Assembly (NCBI RefSeq): GCF_902168175.1
Contig: NZ_CABHOU010000025.1
Coordinates: forward strand, 310,001-374,000
Source: an uncultured Chitinophaga sp.
GTDB lineage: Bacteria; Bacteroidota; Bacteroidia; Chitinophagales; Chitinophagaceae
Direction of reading: 5' to 3'
DNA: 64,000 nucleotides
Position numbers and translations under genes: made by a program
Part shown: in pieces, positions 15,022 to 29,019 of the stretch
How positions within the stretch are numbered: position 1 is the stretch's first letter
How the letters are laid out: each line of letters begins with the position of its first letter
The notes under the pieces: model-generated
The model's database searches: none
The model's input: the letters and a program-made list of their open reading frames with translations, nothing else
Told to the model about the DNA's origin: nothing

Positions 15022-15615
15022 TTATTTATGCCTGTCTTTCAACACATTAATGATGTCTTCCAGCTTAAATCCTTTAGCCTGCAATAAAATCAGGTAATGG
15101 AACAGCAGGTCGGCACCTTCGTCGAGAAACAGGTTATCGTTATTGTCTTTTGCTTCAATCACCAGTTCCACCGCTTCTTCTCCTACCTTTTGCGCCATTT
15201 TATTAATGCCGCGGGCATACAGTTTAGAAGTATAGGAAGCTTCGGTAGGATTACTGATCCTGTTGGCAATGATCTCTTCCAGTTTAGCCAGGAAATCGCT
15301 GCTTTCATTCTTCTCGTCCCAGCAGGTATCTGCGCCGGTATGGCAAACAGGGCCTGCGGGATCGGCTTTGATGAGCAGGGTATCCTTGTCACAATCCACC
15401 TTAACGTCTTTCACGTACAGGAAATTGCCGCTCTCCTCTCCTTTTGTCCATAACCGCTGTTTAGAGCGGCTGTAAAAGGTCACTTTGCCTTCCTCCATGG
15501 TTTTGTCGAAGGCCGCCTGGTCCATGTAACCGAGCATCAGCACCTTGCTGGTAGTGGCGTCCTGTATAATGGCAGGCACCAGGCCGTCGGGAGATTTCTT
15601 AAAATCGATCTGCAT
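15022..15615 (-). CDS. hisI: Bifunctional phosphoribosyl-AMP cyclohydrolase / phosphoribosyl-ATP pyrophosphatase
   Basis: A 197-residue HisIE fusion catalysing steps two and three of histidine synthesis: hydrolysis of PR-ATP to PR-AMP, then opening of the adenine ring. The N-terminal cyclohydrolase part (about residues 1-110) has LMLGYMDQAAF, FYSRSKQRLWTKGE, the metal-binding DCDKD and CHTGADTCW. The C-terminal pyrophosphohydrolase part has KVGEEAVELVIEAK and DEGADLLFHYLILL. Fused HisIE is usual in this phylum. It is the last his gene in the block, 48 bases after hisF. Confidence 0.96.
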   Translation of the reverse strand: MQIDFKKSPDGLVPAIIQDATTSKVLMLGYMDQAAFDKTMEEGKVTFYSRSKQRLWTKGEESGNFLYVKDVKVDCDKDTLLIKADPAGPVCHTGADTCWDEKNESSDFLAKLEEIIANRISNPTEASYTSKLYARGINKMAQKVGEEAVELVIEAKDNNDNLFLDEGADLLFHYLILLQAKGFKLEDIINVLKDRHK

Positions 15616-15663
15616 AAATATAATGAATAAGCTATATATCGGTATACCGCCCGTAAAATTACG

Positions 15664-16419
15664 TTAGAAGCGGATAGAAAGGTTACGTTGGTACAGGTAC
15701 TTTTTGAGGTCCTGTATTTCCATCTCCTTATAATGGAAGATACTGGCTGCCAGTGCTGCATCAGCCTGTGCAATCTCAAACACGTCCGCAAAATGCTGCA
15801 TCGTACCTGCGCCGCCCGATGCGATAATGGGCACGCTCAGGTCTTGCGCCAGCCGGCCGGTAATATCCAGGGCAAAACCCTGTTTGGTACCGTCGTTGTT
15901 CATAGAGGTGAGCAGTATTTCGCCAGCGCCACGTTCCACAGCCTCTTTGGCCCAGTCGGTGGTTTTGCTTTCGGTTTTAACACGACCTCCGTTCAGGTAT
16001 ACATACCAGTCGCCGTCCTCAAATTTGGTATCGATGGCTAATACCACACACTGGCTGCCAAATTCCTGCGCCAGTTCGTTCAACAGTTCCGGCCTGCGAA
16101 AGGCGGCGGAGTTTACAGATACTTTGTCTGCCCCGGCGTTCAGCAGTATACGTACATCTTCCACCGAACTAATTCCTCCACCAACGGTAAAAGGAATATT
16201 AATATGGCGGGCGATGCGTGTAACCAGTTCTGCCAGGGTTTTCCTGCGTTCTACAGTAGCCGTAATATCGAGGAATACGAGTTCGTCTGCACCCTGCTCT
16301 GCATACAAAGCACCCAGTTCAATGGGATCGCCGGCATCGCGGATGTTTTCGAAGTTCACTCCCTTTACGGTCCTGCCGTCTTTAATATCCAGGCAGGGTA
16401 TAATGCGTTTTGTAAGCAT
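15664..16419 (-). CDS. hisF: Imidazole glycerol phosphate synthase, cyclase subunit
   Basis: A 251-residue TIM barrel that joins ammonia from HisH with PRFAR to give imidazole glycerol phosphate and AICAR. It begins [22 protein letters not shown] with the first catalytic Asp, has [27 protein letters not shown], the second-half catalytic Asp in [14 protein letters not shown], and [17 protein letters not shown]. Length is normal. It follows hisA by 6 bases. Confidence 0.97.
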
Positions 16420-16425
16420 AGCTTT

Positions 16426-17151
16426 TTAAACGTTGAATTGTTTGAGTTCGCTGATAGAGATCCTGTTCTCGTAAATGGCCTTGCCAATAATAGCCCCCGC
16501 ACAACCAGCTTCCTGCAGGGCTTCCACGTCGCGGATATTACTCACGCCACCGCTGGCAATAAAGTGGATGTTGTTAAAACGCTCCAGTATCTTTTTATAC
16601 AAATCCACCGAAGGCCCCTGTAACAATCCGTCTTTAGAGATATCGGTACAGAAAACGTTCGTCACACCTTTGTCTACATTCGACTGTAAAAAGTCGTACA
16701 CGCTCAGCTCAGTTGTTTCCAGCCAGCCGCCTACTGCTATGTTCTCCCCTTTTACGTCGGCGCCTAAAAACATTTTATCTGCTCCGTATTGTTGCAGCCA
16801 GCCAAAGAAGATCTCCGGCTGCTTAACGGCCACGCTGCCAATGGTAGCCATCGCCGCGCCGCTTTCAAACACAATACTGATGTCCTTATCTGTTTTAATG
16901 CCTCCACCGAAATCAATCACCATGTTTGTTTTACCGGCAATATCTTCCAGCACTTTCCAGTTTACCACCGCGCCTTTTTTAGCACCGTCGAGGTCTACCA
17001 GGTGCAGGCGCGTAATACCTGCATCTTCAAATTCTTTCGCCACTTCCAGCGGGTGCTCGTTGTACACCGTTTTTTGTGCATAGTCGCCCTGTGTAAGGCG
17101 AACACATTTACCGCCGATAATGTCGATAGCGGGAATAATTTCAAAAGGCAT
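16426..17151 (-). CDS. hisA: Phosphoribosylformimino-5-aminoimidazole carboxamide ribotide isomerase
   Basis: A 241-residue TIM-barrel isomerase converting ProFAR to PRFAR. IPAIDIIGGKCVRLTQGDY supplies the first catalytic Asp, VIDFGGGIKTDKDI a phosphate loop, VFCTDISKDGLLQGP the second catalytic Asp, and IASGGVSNIRDVEAL the other phosphate loop. Only HisA function is expected because a separate TrpF is present. It lies 3 bases after hisH. Confidence 0.97.
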   Translation of the reverse strand: MPFEIIPAIDIIGGKCVRLTQGDYAQKTVYNEHPLEVAKEFEDAGITRLHLVDLDGAKKGAVVNWKVLEDIAGKTNMVIDFGGGIKTDKDISIVFESGAAMATIGSVAVKQPEIFFGWLQQYGADKMFLGADVKGENIAVGGWLETTELSVYDFLQSNVDKGVTNVFCTDISKDGLLQGPSVDLYKKILERFNNIHFIASGGVSNIRDVEALQEAGCAGAIIGKAIYENRISISELKQFNV

Positions 17152-17154
17152 TAT

Positions 17155-17748
17155 CTATAAGTTCAAAAAGCTTTCAATGAGTTTCTCTCCGTGTTCCGCA
17201 CTCTTTTCGGGGTGGAACTGTACGGCGTAAAAGTTATTCTTCTGCAAAGCAGCGCTGTAATTGATCACGTAGTTCGCGATAGCAGTAGTTTCCGAGCCCA
17301 GCTCGGCATAATAGCTATGCACGAAATACATGTACGCGTTCTGCGGTACGTGTTCAAATATCTTACTGTGTAAACCGGTAATGTTGTTCCAGCCGATCTG
17401 CGGGATCTTCAGCAGGTTCTCCACCGGTGAAGTAAATTTCTTTACGTTCAGGTCGAAAATGCCGAGGCATTCGGTGTTGTTTTCCTCAGAGTGTTTACAC
17501 ATCAGCTGTTGCCCCAGGCAAATGCCAAGCGTAGGCTGCTCCAGGTTTTTGATCACCTTATCCAGGCCTTTTTCCTGCAGGTACTTCATAGCACTGCTGG
17601 CTTCTCCCACACCGGGGAATATCACCTTATCGGCCGCCTGTATCTCTTTCGGATCGTCGGTTACCACGCCTTCGATATTCAGGCGTTCCAGTGCGAACAG
17701 CACAGAGCGGATGTTTCCAGCGTTGTATTTTATAATAACGGTCTTCAT
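17155..17748 (-). CDS. hisH: Imidazole glycerol phosphate synthase, glutamine amidotransferase subunit
   Basis: A 197-residue class I glutaminase that feeds ammonia to HisF. The oxyanion/nucleophile elbow is LGICLGQQLM with the catalytic Cys. GVGEASSAM is the early glycine motif, and AVQFHPEKSAEHG gives the catalytic His and Glu. It starts 8 bases after trpA, marking the point where the block returns from trp to his genes. Confidence 0.96.
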   Translation of the reverse strand: MKTVIIKYNAGNIRSVLFALERLNIEGVVTDDPKEIQAADKVIFPGVGEASSAMKYLQEKGLDKVIKNLEQPTLGICLGQQLMCKHSEENNTECLGIFDLNVKKFTSPVENLLKIPQIGWNNITGLHSKIFEHVPQNAYMYFVHSYYAELGSETTAIANYVINYSAALQKNNFYAVQFHPEKSAEHGEKLIESFLNL

Positions 17749-22797: not shown

Positions 22798-24207
22798 TCA
22801 GATGTTTTGAGCCTTGATAATGGCCTGTTTCAGTGCATTCAGTTTATTGTTTACTTCTTCCAGTTCGGAGGTGGCTACCGATTTGGCCACTACTCCTGCG
22901 CCTGCCTGGTAGTACAGCGTATTGTTTTTGCTCAGCATCGAACGGATCATGATAGCATGATTAAAATCGCCGTTAAATCCAACAAATCCTACGCAACCGC
23001 CATAGAAGCCACGCGAAGTGGGTTCATAACGGTCTATCAGTTCCATGGCCTTAAACTTGGGAGCGCCGGAAAGGGTGCCCGCAGGGAAGGTATCGGCCAG
23101 TATACTGAAAGGCGGGGTTTTACCGTCGATATCGCCGGTTACTTCGCTAACAAGGTGAATAACATGGGAATAAAAATGGATTTGCCTGTACGATGTTACT
23201 TCCACATTGGTAGCGTGGCGGCTCAGATCGTTGCGGGCAAGATCTACCAGCATTACGTGTTCCGCGTTCTCCTTCGGATCTTCCAGCAACTGCGCAGCGA
23301 GTTGTTTATCCTGCTCGTCGTTGCCTGTACGCCTGAACGTGCCGGCAATAGGGTGGATCACCGCTTTACCGTTACGCATGATCAACTGCGCTTCGGGCGA
23401 AGAGCCCATTAATTTATAGTCGCCGTAATCGAAGTAAAAAAGGTAGGGAGATGGGTTGATGGAGCGGAGGGCGCGGTATACATTAAACTCGTCGCCGGAA
23501 AATTGCTGGTTAAAGGAGCGGGACAGTACGATCTGGAAAACATCTCCGCGGAAGCAGTGTTCGCGGCCCTTTTCCACCATCTGTATGTATTGCTCCCCTG
23601 TCATATTACTCTTCTCTTCTCCAACCGGGGCAAAAGGATAAGCGGGGAAGTCTTTGATGCGGATCAGCGATTCGATCTGGTCAAATTCGCTCTCCACCCC
23701 GTCTATCGCGTTTTCGCATAAGTACATCTCATCCTTGAAGTGGTTAATGACGATCACATACTGGTAAAAACGATAGCGCATCAGTGGGATCGTATTACCG
23801 TTGGTTTCGCGCTTCTGGAATTTGATGGTTTCGAAAAACTGAACGGAATCGAACGTGCTGTAACCGTAAAGTCCTTCAGTAAAAGGCACGGGACTCTTTT
23901 CCGTAAAGGTGAAGCTTTGGAGGAAGTTATCCATTTCTTTCAAAACTTCCGCAGGGCTGTTCAATTGCCTGCGTTCCGGTTCCTTATTGGGGTACTTGAA
24001 CTCGAAAATATCCGTAGAGGTAACCTCAATGCCAGCAATGGGTTTGATGGCAATAAAAGAATAACTGTTTTCGCTGGCATGCGAGTCGGTGCTTTCCAGC
24101 AATATAGACCCGGGGAATTTATCCCTGATGCGCAGGTAAATACTTACCGGTGTATACACATCGGCCAGCATCTGTTTGAATTTCGTCCGTACCTGAATCT
24201 GTTTCAT
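22798..24207 (-). CDS. trpE: Anthranilate synthase component I
   Basis: A 469-residue chorismate-using enzyme, first of the nested trp genes. LLESTDSHASENSYSF near residue 35 contains the LLES element of the Trp feedback site. The C-terminal chorismate-binding domain has FQIVLSRSF, IAGTFRRTG, EHVMLVDLARNDLSRH, PAGTLSGAPKFKAMELID and FYGGCVGFVGFNGDFNHAIMIR. It is preceded by a 271-base gap that holds a promoter, a Trp-rich leader ORF and a terminator, so regulation by both attenuation and feedback inhibition is expected. Confidence 0.97.
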   Translation of the reverse strand: MKQIQVRTKFKQMLADVYTPVSIYLRIRDKFPGSILLESTDSHASENSYSFIAIKPIAGIEVTSTDIFEFKYPNKEPERRQLNSPAEVLKEMDNFLQSFTFTEKSPVPFTEGLYGYSTFDSVQFFETIKFQKRETNGNTIPLMRYRFYQYVIVINHFKDEMYLCENAIDGVESEFDQIESLIRIKDFPAYPFAPVGEEKSNMTGEQYIQMVEKGREHCFRGDVFQIVLSRSFNQQFSGDEFNVYRALRSINPSPYLFYFDYGDYKLMGSSPEAQLIMRNGKAVIHPIAGTFRRTGNDEQDKQLAAQLLEDPKENAEHVMLVDLARNDLSRHATNVEVTSYRQIHFYSHVIHLVSEVTGDIDGKTPPFSILADTFPAGTLSGAPKFKAMELIDRYEPTSRGFYGGCVGFVGFNGDFNHAIMIRSMLSKNNTLYYQAGAGVVAKSVATSELEEVNNKLNALKQAIIKAQNI

Positions 24208-24308: not shown

Positions 24309-24343
24309 AAAAAGCAGAAGGCCCGCTGTGTACAGCGAGCCTT
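24309..24343 (-). terminator. trp attenuator terminator hairpin
   Basis: On the minus strand AAGGCTCGCTGT pairs with ACAGCGGGCCTT (one mismatch) and is followed by CTGCTTTTT. It lies between the Trp-codon leader ORF and trpE. A part of the leader (GAGCTT) can pair with AAGGCTC as an alternative, and TGGCAC in the leader can pair with GTGCCA, so competing structures are possible. Confidence 0.75.
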
Positions 24344-24372
24344 CAAATATTTGTAATACAAACATGGCACTG

Positions 24373-24432
24373 TTACACAGCGTAAGCTCTGGAAACGTGC
24401 CACCAATATTTGTATGTGAAAGTCTTTGTCAT
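24373..24432 (-). CDS. trpL: trp leader peptide with tandem Trp codons
   Basis: A 19-residue ORF too short for the track: MTKTFTYKYWWHVSRAYAV then TAA. The two adjacent TGG codons at positions 10-11 would stall a ribosome when charged tRNA-Trp is scarce, just before the competing hairpins that end in the terminator at 24309-24343. The ATG lies 8 bases past a -7-like box, leaving almost no untranslated leader, in the same arrangement as the his leader. The position immediately upstream of trpE makes classical transcription attenuation the obvious reading, inferred from sequence only. Confidence 0.85.
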   Translation of the reverse strand: MTKTFTYKYWWHVSRAYAV

Positions 24433-24440
24433 ATCGGGAA

Positions 24441-24471
24441 CAAATATGCAAGGAAATCCGCACAATTACAA
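24441..24471 (-). promoter_or_regulatory. Candidate internal promoter for the trp genes
   Basis: TTG, 20 bases, then CATATTTG (one mismatch to TAnnTTTG) lies just after the hisB stop. The -7 box is followed by TTCCCGAT and the leader ATG, closely matching the his promoter arrangement (TACCCGAA then ATG). Confidence 0.6.
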
Positions 24472-24478
24472 ATTTATT

Positions 24479-25615
24479 TTAAAGCACGCCTTTTGTACTC
24501 GGAAGCTGCATATTATCGGGGTTGCGCTTCACTGCCATTTTGATTGCCTTGGCAAAGGTTTTGAAGATGGCCTCTATTTTATGATGCTCGTTATCTCCCT
24601 CTGCCTTGATGTTCAGATTGGCCCGGGCCGCGTCGGAGAAGGATTTAAAGAAGTGGAAGAACATCTCTGTAGGCATCTCTCCTATCTTCTCTCTCTTAAA
24701 CTCCGCGTCCCAAACAATCCAGTTACGACCGCCGAAGTCGATGGCTACCTGGGCCAGGCAGTCGTCCATAGGCAGGCAGAAGCCGTATCGTTCTATCCCT
24801 CTTTTATCGGCCAAAGCGGTACCAATGGCCTCGCCCAGTGCAATACCGGTATCTTCTATGGTGTGGTGTTCATCTATATGCAGGTCGCCTTTTGCCTGTA
24901 TGTCCAGGTCAATACTGCCGTGGCGGGCAATCTGGTCGAGCATATGATCAAAGAAATGTAAACCTGTGCTGATATTGGCTTTGCCGGTGCCGTCGAGGTT
25001 TAATTTAATGCGGATATCGGTTTCTTTGGTGGTACGTACATGTTCCACCTGGCGTAAACCTACTTTCAGGAATTCGTAGATCTTAGCCCAGTCGGTGGTT
25101 TCAAGTGCTACCACTTCCTGTAGTTTAGCCGCATCTCCACTCACTTCCGCAGCGCCCAGGGAGCTGTCTTCTTTCATCCAGATGGCTTTGGCGCCCAGGT
25201 TCTGGGCCAGTTGCACATCGGTAATACGGTCGCCTATCACGAAGCTGTTCGCCAGGTCGTACGTGCCGTCCATATACTTCGTAAGCATGCCGGTACCGGG
25301 TTTGCGGGTAGGTTTGTTTTCGGCAGGCAAACTACAATCGATGCAGATATCAGAAAACACTACGCCTTCACCTTCAAATGAACGCAGGATGTGGTTTTGT
25401 GCGGGCCAGAAAGTATCTTCTGGAAAAGACGCCGTGCCCATACCATCCTGGTTGCTCACCATTACCAGCACATAATCCAGTTCTGCAGCTATCTTCCCGA
25501 GGTAAGTAAATGCTTTGGGATAAAACTCCACCTTGTCCAGACTGTCGATCTGGTACGTTGGTGGTTTTTCTTTGATCATGGTGCCGTCGCGGTCTATGAA
25601 CAGTATTCTTTTCAT
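24479..25615 (-). CDS. hisB: Bifunctional histidinol-phosphatase / imidazoleglycerol-phosphate dehydratase
   Basis: A 378-residue fusion. The N-terminal HAD phosphatase (about 1-165) has [17 protein letters not shown] and [10 protein letters not shown], and dephosphorylates histidinol phosphate. The C-terminal dehydratase (about 185-378) has [33 protein letters not shown] and [16 protein letters not shown] metal ligands. Its start overlaps the hisC stop by 4 bases. It is the last his gene before the trp insertion. Confidence 0.97.
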
Positions 25616-26652
25616 GCTTGTAATGCGTTTAACAGTTTAACGTTTTCTTCCGGTGTACCTACGGTAATACGCAGGCAGCCTGCACACAGTTCTACTTTGG
25701 AGCGGTCGCGCACAATAATGCCCTGTTCTACCAGCTTATTATACAATCCTTTCGCATCCACGGTTTTGGCCAGTACGAAGTTGGCGTCGCTGGGGTATAT
25801 TTTTGTTACCACGGGCAGTTTGGCCAAACCTGCTACCAGCTTCTCGCGCTCGTCCACTGTTTCTTTAATCCAAACATTCACACGCTCCATATTCTCAAGT
25901 GCTTCCAGCACTAAGTCCTGTGAAGCCTGGTTGATATTATAAGGTGGTTTGATCTTGTTCATCACATCGATGATCGGCTCGCCCGCAAAGGCCATCCCTA
26001 CACGTAAAGCTGCGAGTCCCCATGCCTTCGACAGTGTTTGTAACACTACCAGGTTAGGATATTCTGTCAGTTCCTGTATAAATGTTTTTTGTTTGGCGAA
26101 GTTGATGTAAGCTTCGTCGATTACCACCACACCATCGAAGTTGTTCAGCACCATTTCAATATCCACGCGGTTAATGGAGTTACCGGTAGGGTTATTGGGC
26201 GAGCAGATAAAGATAAGTTTGGTATTGGCGTCGATGGCTTCTTCGAGGGCGGGGAGGTCTAACTGGAAATCTTCGGTGAGGCTTACTTTACGGATAACGG
26301 TGTCGTTAATGTTGGCACTTACTTCGTACATGCCGTAGGTAGGCGGACAAAGCACCACGTTATCGATGCCGGGGCGGCAGAAGGCGCGGTAGAGTACATC
26401 TATACATTCATCGCTGCCATTACCGAGGAAGATGTTTTGTGGCGGCACGCCTTTTATATCGGCCAGCTTGTATTTGATCTTCCATTGCATGGGATCGGGA
26501 TAACGATTGTAATCCTTTTCCAGTGGAGAGCCGAAGCTGTTTTCGTTAGCGTCCAGGAAAACGCCGGCTTCTCCTTTAAACTCATCTCTTGCGGATGAAT
26601 AAGGCACCAGCCTTTTAATATTATCGCGGAGTAAATTATTTAAGTCGAACAT
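25612..26652 (-). CDS. hisC: Histidinol-phosphate aminotransferase
   Basis: A 346-residue fold-type I PLP aminotransferase. [11 protein letters not shown] at the N-terminus, [34 protein letters not shown], and [16 protein letters not shown] with the PLP Lys are in order. It transfers the amino group from glutamate to imidazole acetol phosphate. It is 11 bases after hisD. Confidence 0.97.
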
Positions 26653-26663
26653 GATTCAGTACA

Positions 26664-27947
26664 TTAATTGTTGATTGCTTTTAAACGAACAGTAACGGCC
26701 AGTTTATGTGCATCCAGCCCTTCTGCCGCGGCCATGGTTTCTATCACCGGCCCAAGTTTTTGTAACCCTTCGCGGCTCAGTCGCTGGAACGTGATCTTTT
26801 TCACAAAGCTATCGAGCGATACACCACTGTACGCAGTGGCATAACCGTTGGTAGGTAAAGTATGGTTGGTGCCCGAAGCGTAGTCGCCTGCACTTTCAGG
26901 AGAATAATTACCGAGGAATACAGAACCTGCATTTACCACCCGGGCTGCAATAGCTTCGTCGTCCTTACAGGCCACGATCAGATGTTCCGGCGCATAAGCG
27001 TTCAGCAGCTCCATCGCATCGTCGAGGTTTTTCACCAGCAACAGTTTACTGTTATTCAGCGCCTGTTCCGCAATATCGCGGCGGGGCAGTTCTTTCAGCT
27101 GTGCTTCCACAGCCGCCTGCACATCAGCGATCACTTTTTCCGAAGTGGTTACCAGCACTACCTGGCTATCCGGACCATGCTCCGCCTGCGATAACAGGTC
27201 GGCTGCCACAAATTCAGGTACACAGGTATCGTCGGCCAGCACGGCAACTTCCGAAGGACCAGCAGGCATATCGATCGCTAACCCGGCTTTGCTTACCAGT
27301 TGTTTTGCGCAGGTAACGTACTGGTTACCCGGACCAAACACCTTGTACACCCGTGGCACGCTTTCGGTACCATAAGCCATAGCGCCTATTGCCTGTACAC
27401 CGCCTATCTTAAATACACGGGTGATACCAACGAGTTGTGCGGTGTAAAGAATTGCAGGGTGAATACCATCTTTACCGGCAGGGGAACAAAGCACAATTTC
27501 TTTACAACCCGCCAGCTTAGCCGGTATACCCAGCATTAAGATGGTGGAGAACAAAGGTGCAGAGCCACCCGGAATGTACAAGCCTACCTTTTCGATGGCA
27601 GTGGCGCGGCGCCAGCATTGTACACCGGGCATGGTTTCTACCACGGTTGTTTGTTCCTGTTGCTGTTGATGGAATACTTCGATATTACTTTTAGCCTGTT
27701 GTATAGCAGCTTTCAGCTCGTTGCTCACCTCAGCGGCAGCGGCAGCAAATTCAGCTTCACTTACACTGATATCTCCCAGTTCGGCCTTATCGAACTGCAG
27801 TGCAAATTTGCGTACAGCTACGTCTCCGTTGGCTTTCACCTCTTCAAGTATAGCGGCCACCCTGGCTTCCAGGTCGCGCGTATCAAATGCGGGCCTTTGC
27901 AGTAACTGGTTCCAGGTGCTTTTTTCCGGGTAACGGATATATTGCAT
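26664..27947 (-). CDS. hisD: Histidinol dehydrogenase
   Basis: A 427-residue zinc enzyme catalysing the last two oxidations to histidine. YIPGGSAPLFSTILMLGIPA, GGVQAIGAMAYGTESVPRV, KVFGPGNQYVTCAKQLV, DMPAGPSEVAVLAD, DLLSQAEHGPDSQ and the late NHTLPTNGYATAYSGVSLDSF are all present. The His of SQAEHGP and later residues form the zinc and catalytic site. Normal length, 11 bases after hisG. Confidence 0.97.
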   Translation of the reverse strand: MQYIRYPEKSTWNQLLQRPAFDTRDLEARVAAILEEVKANGDVAVRKFALQFDKAELGDISVSEAEFAAAAAEVSNELKAAIQQAKSNIEVFHQQQQEQTTVVETMPGVQCWRRATAIEKVGLYIPGGSAPLFSTILMLGIPAKLAGCKEIVLCSPAGKDGIHPAILYTAQLVGITRVFKIGGVQAIGAMAYGTESVPRVYKVFGPGNQYVTCAKQLVSKAGLAIDMPAGPSEVAVLADDTCVPEFVAADLLSQAEHGPDSQVVLVTTSEKVIADVQAAVEAQLKELPRRDIAEQALNNSKLLLVKNLDDAMELLNAYAPEHLIVACKDDEAIAARVVNAGSVFLGNYSPESAGDYASGTNHTLPTNGYATAYSGVSLDSFVKKITFQRLSREGLQKLGPVIETMAAAEGLDAHKLAVTVRLKAINN

Positions 27948-27958
27948 CGCTTTAATTT

Positions 27959-28816
27959 TTAAATCACCATTTTTTCGATCGGCACTACTAAAATGCCTTG
28001 TGCGCCGGCGGCTTTCAGGCTTTCGATAATGTCCCAGAAGTCGTTTTCGTTCAGTACAGAATGTACAGAGCTCCAGCCTTCTTCGGCCAGTGGCAGTACG
28101 GTAGGACTTTTCATACCGGGCAGCAGGCTGATAATCTTAGCCAGGTTATCGTTAGGGGCATTCAGCAATACGTATTTATTGTTCTTCGCCTTCTTAACAG
28201 CTTTAATGCGGAACAGCAGTTTGTCCAGGATCTGGGTTTGTTCTGCCGTCAGTTTTTTATTGGCGATCAGTACTGCTTCCGATTTCAGGATGGTTTCTAC
28301 TTCCTTCAAACCATTCATGAATAAAGTAGAACCGCTGCTTACGAGGTCGCATATAGCATCGGCCAAACCAATACCGGGTGCAATTTCAACCGAACCGCTG
28401 ATCTCGTGAATTTCCGCCTTAATGTTATTTTTATCAAGGAACTGACCGAGTATTACGGGGTAACTGGTAGCAATGCGCATATTCTGCATATCGCTTACCG
28501 TGTTGTACTCCATTGTTTTGGGAACGGCCATTGATAAACGGCATTTACCAAAACCCAGTTTCTCGATCGCATCTACCGGGCGGTTTTTCTCCAGCACAAC
28601 GTTTTCGCCAACGATACCGATATCGGCTACGCCATCTTCCACGTATTGCGGAATATCATCATCGCGCAGGAAAAATAGTTCCAGTGGAAAGTTGCTGGCT
28701 TCTGTTTTCAATTTGTTAACACCGTTGTTCATATCAATTCCGCATTCCTTCAGCAGTTTGATAGAATCGTCGTGTAAACGGCCTGATTTCTGGATCGCAA
28801 TTCTAAGTTTTTGCAT
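27959..28816 (-). CDS. hisG: ATP phosphoribosyltransferase, long form
   Basis: A 285-residue enzyme for the first committed step, joining ATP and PRPP. LRIAIQKSGRLHDDS starts the catalytic part, and VADIGIVGENVV plus GSVEIAPGIGLADAICDLVSSGSTL give the PRPP loop. The last 80 residues (YVLLNAPNDNLAKIISLLPGMKSPTVLPL and so on) are the regulatory ACT-like domain of the HisG-long form, so feedback by histidine without HisZ is expected. It is the first structural gene after the his leader and attenuator. Confidence 0.96.
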   Translation of the reverse strand: MQKLRIAIQKSGRLHDDSIKLLKECGIDMNNGVNKLKTEASNFPLELFFLRDDDIPQYVEDGVADIGIVGENVVLEKNRPVDAIEKLGFGKCRLSMAVPKTMEYNTVSDMQNMRIATSYPVILGQFLDKNNIKAEIHEISGSVEIAPGIGLADAICDLVSSGSTLFMNGLKEVETILKSEAVLIANKKLTAEQTQILDKLLFRIKAVKKAKNNKYVLLNAPNDNLAKIISLLPGMKSPTVLPLAEEGWSSVHSVLNENDFWDIIESLKAAGAQGILVVPIEKMVI

Positions 28817-28850: not shown

Positions 28851-28885
28851 AATAAAAAAAGGCCTACCGGAACCGGTAAGCCTTT
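28851..28885 (-). terminator. his attenuator terminator hairpin
   Basis: On the minus strand AAAGGCTTACCGG pairs with CCGGTAGGCCTTT (one G-U pair) and runs into seven T. It lies between the His-codon leader ORF and hisG. Confidence 0.85.
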
Positions 28886-28918
28886 GATGATGTTTTTATA
28901 TCTTTTAAGTACATAAAA

Positions 28919-28981
28919 TCATCCCAGCCCACCGCTCTGGTAAGTATGATGATGATGTGTATGTACGTTGTTATTTTTCAT
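28919..28981 (-). CDS. hisL: his leader peptide with five His codons
   Basis: A 20-residue ORF missed by the track: MKNNNVHTHHHHTYQ and five more residues, then TGA. His codons occur at positions 7 and 9-12. It precedes a strong terminator hairpin and hisG, exactly the layout of classical his attenuation, in which stalling at His codons would let transcription continue. The ATG lies 8 bases beyond the promoter -7 box, so the message would have only a few untranslated bases. Confidence 0.9.
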   Translation of the reverse strand: MKNNNVHTHHHHTYQSGGLG

Positions 28982-28989
28982 TTCGGGTA

Positions 28990-29019
28990 CAAAAGTAACA
29001 AGTATTATGGAAAATGCAA
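28990..29019 (-). promoter_or_regulatory. Promoter of the his-trp operon
   Basis: TTG, exactly 19 bases, then TACTTTTG gives a full match to the Bacteroidota primary-sigma promoter consensus. It is followed by TACCCGAA and the hisL ATG. Confidence 0.8.

Follow-up and report, generated by a model that had tools for sequence, protein, structure and literature searches.

A predicted attenuator with adjoining Trp and His codons inside a his-trp-his operon of Chitinophaga

Gene order and leader regions of the operon

The open reading frames on the minus strand of the window (the whole 64,000-nucleotide stretch of Chitinophaga DNA that we analysed) are arranged in the order hisGDCB-attenuator-trpEGDCFBA-hisHAFI, where the his and trp names come from reading the translations (Table 1). 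Searches by tblastn with the window proteins recovered the same his/trp order in relatives. Gene hisB was found in 79/79 genomes of the genus, and the complete his-trp-his order in 75 of 79 sequences (78 genus relatives plus the window); some genes of the remaining four were not found within the stretch examined.

Table 1. Features of the his-trp-his locus, by position in the window.
Feature	Position	Strand	Basis and remarks
Head-of-operon his attenuator	28858..28997	-	TACTTTTG box 28997-28990; leader ORF 28981-28919, MKNNNVHTHHHHTYQSGGLG; terminator 28885-28858
hisG, hisD, hisC, hisB	24479..28816	-	5' of the attenuator; open frames and order in relatives
hisB-trpE gap		-	271 bp; holds promoter, leader ORF, exclusive stems and terminator
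Internal promoter (predicted)	24441..24472	-	sequence; TTTG 24472-24469, 20-nt spacer, CATATTTG 24448-24441
Leader peptide ORF	24373..24432	-	sequence; MTKTFTYKYWWHVSRAYAV, 19 codons, stop TAA; putative 5' UTR of ~4 nt
Tandem Trp codons W10 W11	24400..24405	-	sequence; TGG TGG
His codon H12	24397..24399	-	CAC, directly after the Trp run; proposed second regulatory codon
Segment 2	24366..24380	-	folding and alignment; partner of segment 1 (TGGCAC/GTGCCA) or of segment 3 (antiterminator)
Segment 3	24326..24341	-	antiterminator partner; overlaps terminator 5' arm, loop and start of 3' arm
Intrinsic terminator (segment 3:4)	24317..24344	-	-21.2 kcal/mol; 12 bp, 4-nt loop, then UGCUUUUUAG U tract
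trpE	22798..24207	-	open frame; first gene past the attenuator
trpG, D, C, F, B, A	after trpE, down to 17757	-	open frames; tblastn order in relatives
hisH, hisA, hisF, hisI	15022..17748	-	open frames; past trpA, behind the same attenuator

At the head of the operon lies a his attenuator on which the original prediction was silent. Its leader peptide contains HTHHHH and is followed by a strong terminator. In all 84 loci that reach upstream of hisG, this gene was preceded by a short ORF in which His codons cluster, and one of these ORFs contains Trp.

The original prediction instead concerned the hisB-trpE gap, where it placed a trp attenuator with its own promoter in the middle of a his operon; sequence, folding and conservation all support this reading. 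The promoter-like pair that it named is of the Bacteroidetes type (TTTG followed by CATATTTG), with one mismatch to the consensus TTTG/TAnnTTTG. A -7-like motif was found in 252 of 262 leaders, and 217 of these 252 also had TTTG or TTG at the -33 distance. A scan of the sigma-70 (E. coli) type yielded 22 sites versus 22.1 expected, hence no excess over shuffles; given that promoters of Bacteroidetes are of another kind, none was to be expected. The TAnnTTTG box of Flavobacterium is placed at -12 to -5 (PMC9723704); if the box is placed likewise here, transcription would start near 24436, about 4 nt 5' of the leader ATG, and the leader ORF would therefore be nearly leaderless on its own transcript. 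The same ORF would be internal on read-through his transcripts. Among the 252 leaders with the box, 139 had the leader ATG 4–11 nt past it.

The leader ORF itself ends in TAA and contains tandem TGG codons, as had been claimed, but the 14 residues originally quoted were five short of its true length of 19. An equivalent ORF was found 5' of trpE in 262 of the 271 loci examined. As expected of a trp attenuator, the ORF is short, contains tandem Trp codons and lies directly 5' of trp genes. Moreover, the genes downstream of it (trpEGDCFBA and hisHAFI) serve each amino acid coded in the leader, as expected of an attenuator for more than one amino acid.

Within the genus, the leader ORF preceded trpE in 78/78 sequences having that gene. 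The Trp run was W-W, W-W-W or W-R-W in every case, and His followed the last Trp directly in all 78 (WWH, WWWH or, in eight, WRWH), encoded by CAC in 74 leaders and by CAT in 4. Same-genus loci thus kept both the Trp codons and the hairpin, the conservation that had been proposed as a check, with W-R-W as the variant in eight of 78. In those eight genomes (TGG CGT TGG) the flanking His codons were kept. Beyond the genus, sixty loci of the family had the same leader design. Insertions have produced hisB-trpE gaps of 1.2–2.8 kb in seven loci, in which the attenuator stays beside trpE. Two successive Trp leader ORFs were observed 5' of trpE in Fulvivirga, a Flammeovirgaceae MAG and Rufibacter; these are possibly tandem attenuators.

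Terminator, alternative stems and modelled stalling

The GC-rich hairpin with a T run that had been noted 5' of trpE is the 12-bp terminator 24344-24317 with its UGCUUUUUAG tract, which ranked top in the terminator table of the his-trp region. An intrinsic terminator with a U tract therefore lies between the leader and the first gene, as in trp attenuators, and 260 of 262 leaders were followed by a terminator-like hairpin. The folded leader RNA had an energy of -49.3 kcal/mol (z = -4.2), and 0/200 shuffles were as stable.

Stem conservation was scored on 43 aligned leaders from the genus and near relatives. The terminator was paired in 100% of cells and exceeded shuffles. The antiterminator (CTGTGT.ACAG.GCC with GGC...CTGT.ACACAG, 13 pairs) was paired in 95.3% of cells, and its covariation was greater than in all 500 shuffles. 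The 1:2 stem (TGGCAC/GTGCCA) was paired in 95.7% of cells and was too invariant for a shuffle comparison. This stem was one of the two alternative pairings originally proposed, and it is conserved in the genus; the other, GAGCTT/AAGGCTC, was considered as the antiterminator and rejected, for it appears in the window's fold with the ribosome stalled at W11 but is confined to this species and its closest relatives.

We modelled stalling by exposing the nascent RNA past a ribosome, with its leading edge set 13 nt beyond the start of the A-site codon. In the window, the terminator 5' arm was captured (occupancy 0.53–0.57) with the A site at Y9, W10, W11, H12 and on to A16, and it was free (0.01–0.07) for a ribosome at F5, Y7, V19 or the stop. 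The folding check suggested earlier, with a ribosome at the WW codons, thus came out as anticipated in silico. Averaged over 141 leaders with his genes downstream, capture formed a plateau of 0.65–0.66 from four codons before the Trp run through the residue after it, and fell past this plateau to 0.29 at the stop codon. In the model, then, the antiterminator is exclusive with the terminator and is released when the ribosome stalls on the Trp codons but not when it is at the stop, while the codons for each of the two amino acids lie inside the stall-sensitive region. Together, the exclusive stems and the modelled stalling would amount to classic attenuator logic.

A strong intercistronic terminator next to a chance ORF would be the non-functional explanation of such a layout. 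We regard it as very improbable, because the leader ORF with its Trp run, the exclusive stems and the terminator are found again and again in family and class, even where more than 1 kb has been inserted between hisB and the leader.

The His codon and the downstream his genes

We compared 244 leaders of known linkage from the family and the class, where a leader was called linked if hisH followed on the same strand, no more than 16 kb downstream. Linkage was read from contigs, such that a few cases may be wrong in the following counts: His stood at +1 of the Trp run (strict definition) in 139/143 linked leaders versus 30/101 unlinked leaders. Four linked leaders had Gln at +1, with His at -1 in three (HWWWQ, all of one genus) and at +2 in one (WWWQH). 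Under a broad definition (His at -1 to +2) the counts became 143/143 linked versus 30/101 unlinked; this range was set after the four exceptions had been seen, which makes the strict counts the conservative choice. The leaders with Q after the Trp run were weighed as counterexamples and dismissed, as all four have a neighbouring His.

A scan of offsets -5 to +7 showed that His was enriched at two positions only, +1 (101/105 linked versus 28/78 unlinked) and -1 (41/105 versus 1/78). After TrpE was collapsed at 75% identity, His was present in 26/28 linked versus 20/50 unlinked leaders (p = 2.9e-6). A Pagel-type likelihood-ratio test on a 243-tip TrpE tree gave 26.7 for the strict definition (p = 1.6e-6, 2 df) and 41.5 for the broad one (p = 1e-9), p-values that rest on a gene tree, a midpoint root and a chi-square approximation. 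On the same tree the fitted rate of His loss was 1.93 in unlinked versus 0.11 in linked lineages. The second codon type is thus constrained when the genes of its pathway are in the operon, both in the raw counts and in the tree-aware test.

These results bear on the possibility that the His codon merely adjusts the pace of the ribosome, or is a relic of an ancestral mixed operon, and that its link to his genes is a phylogenetic coincidence. Two clades do contain most of the linked operons, and His is often kept by their unlinked members. Set against this are the tree-aware p-values (1.6e-6 or lower) and the pattern of replacement: in unlinked lineages His has repeatedly given way to Q, L, R, V or F, whereas no replacement was seen in a linked operon without a neighbouring His. 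We consider this possibility to be quite unlikely. Outside the family, linked leaders of Algoriphagus, Cecembia, Belliella, Litoribacter and Mariniradius read WWWH, and in place of His unlinked leaders have L or V (Cyclobacterium), F (Lunatimonas), P (Hymenobacter) or N, K or S (Flavobacterium). His has nonetheless been kept without linkage in Fulvivirga, Adhaeribacter, Rufibacter and some Algoriphagus. In the 33 linked loci where no hisB was seen upstream, His was kept in 33/33 (broad definition), and therefore the His codon follows the downstream his genes.

A somewhat stronger contender, which we still hold to be improbable, is a plain trp attenuator in which the His codon is retained as part of the 1:2 stem and not for sensing His. 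The bases of this codon were mostly paired in that stem in our folding (mean pairing 0.74–0.86), the stem is nearly always paired in the genus, and RNA structure therefore adds to the conservation of the codon. Other leader positions, such as an RGL end conserved elsewhere in the family, likewise resemble antiterminator constraint. But a plain trp attenuator predicts no dependence on downstream his genes. In addition, His can switch sides of the Trp run (HWWWQ, WWWQH), although its presence in linked operons is absolute only when -1 and +2 are counted. Finally, linked genomes change the codon only synonymously or to Q with a neighbouring His: the +1 codon in linked operons was CAC in 82 leaders, CAT in 57 and CAA in 4, which is synonymous drift with CAA only beside another His. 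Trp attenuation as originally proposed is supported at the sequence level, but the pure trp reading left out hisHAFI past trpA and the conserved His codon that adjoins the Trp codons; these two features together point to a sensor of two amino acids.

A proposed two-amino-acid sensor and its relation to known leaders

We propose that the hisGDCB-trpEGDCFBA-hisHAFI operon contains a ribosome-mediated attenuator whose leader probably senses Trp through WW and His through the adjacent H. The anatomy and exclusive stems described above are read directly from sequence and comparison, as are their conservation and the association of the His codon with downstream his genes; from them we infer termination, stalling and a response to each amino acid, as follows. 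RNA polymerase would arrive either from the internal promoter or from the upstream his promoter, which has its own His-codon attenuator. With both charged tRNAs ample, the ribosome would reach the stop and cover segment 2, the terminator would form, and trp-hisHAFI would be off. Stalling at W10, W11 or H12 would leave segment 2 free to capture the terminator 5' arm, and polymerase would then proceed into trp and hisHAFI. Without the His codon, His starvation would open the head attenuator with hisHAFI still shut behind the trp attenuator. That is, because hisHAFI lies behind that attenuator, transcription under His starvation alone would stop before trp-hisHAFI. H12 would let the leader open on either uncharged tRNA, and in this way the conflict posed by the gene order would be solved.

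Besides the pairing of the His codon in the 1:2 stem, three observations speak against sensing of two amino acids. The leader of this species has a single His codon, and attenuator sensitivity rises with the fraction of regulatory codons (PMC1183508), so the response to His may be weak. The 30 of 101 unlinked leaders that also have His mean that its use is not confined to operons with following his genes. Lastly, the stall-permissive region in this species is broad, from Y9 to A16, and position alone therefore does not pick out His.

Multi-amino-acid attenuators are textbook examples in the ilvGMEDA and thr operons of enterobacteria. The present leader would share with them a single peptide in which two or more amino acids made by the operon each have regulatory codons. 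Those systems, however, pair amino acids of one branched pathway, whereas here two separate pathways are joined by gene order. Among the open-access papers that we searched (subscription journals lay mostly outside the search) no Trp+His leader was found described, and an attenuator for these two amino acids would be new in that respect. An interruption of the his operon by trp genes was reported for Thermoflavifilum thermophilum and Filimonas lacunae (PMC8305728); this is a similarly mixed his-trp cluster, but the passages found in that paper treat gene order in two species, mention no leader or attenuator of the cluster and state that there are no expression data.

The whole window had no match in Rfam at gathering threshold. 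The E. coli trpL type (RF00513, Trp_leader) shares the short ORF, the tandem UGG codons, the 1:2, 2:3 and 3:4 stems and the U-tract terminator before trpE; the leader described here differs in its mid-operon site, its near-leaderless start, its Bacteroidetes promoter, the conserved His codon after the Trp codons and the his genes downstream, and it scored 22.9 bits against RF00513, below the gathering cut-off of 41. Trp leaders of Bacteroidetes are known as Bacteroid-trp (RF01692; Weinberg et al. 2010, PMC2864571; PMC6414381), and leader-peptide attenuation has been suggested 5' of Flavobacterium amino-acid operons (PMC9723704). Bacteroid-trp RNA likewise has Trp codons, and its weak, partial match in the window (31.4 bits) fell below the cut-off of 49, which was reached in 0/100 genomes of the order; its consensus has UGGUGGUG, without a His codon.

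Side observations were made mainly in Cyclobacteriaceae, in loci where many trp operons contain genes for DAHP synthase and/or phenylalanine 4-hydroxylase, located between trpA and hisH where this could be read. In most of the corresponding leaders the Trp run has Tyr or Phe codons as neighbours (KYWWWH, WWWYF, WWWLTYFF), but Tyr also occurs in leaders of some loci that lack these genes. A third sensed amino acid (Tyr/Phe) is only suggested by such loci.

Trp leaders sampled from this order escape the present Rfam models. We offer, as a speculation that may well prove wrong, that the trp leader peptides of Bacteroidota are an evolving bar code of operon content, a multi-input gate in which neighbours of the Trp run are gained and lost with pathways: His with hisHAFI, and possibly Tyr/Phe with DAHP synthase and phenylalanine 4-hydroxylase (Algoriphagus KYWWWH, Cyclobacterium WWWLTYFF). 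Under the two-amino-acid reading, a fused two-pathway operon could escape regulatory conflict, since genes of one pathway behind the attenuator of another could be rescued by a single codon. Across many genomes, the association of leader codons with operon content provides a natural experiment, through which the evolution of attenuator specificity can be tested directly.
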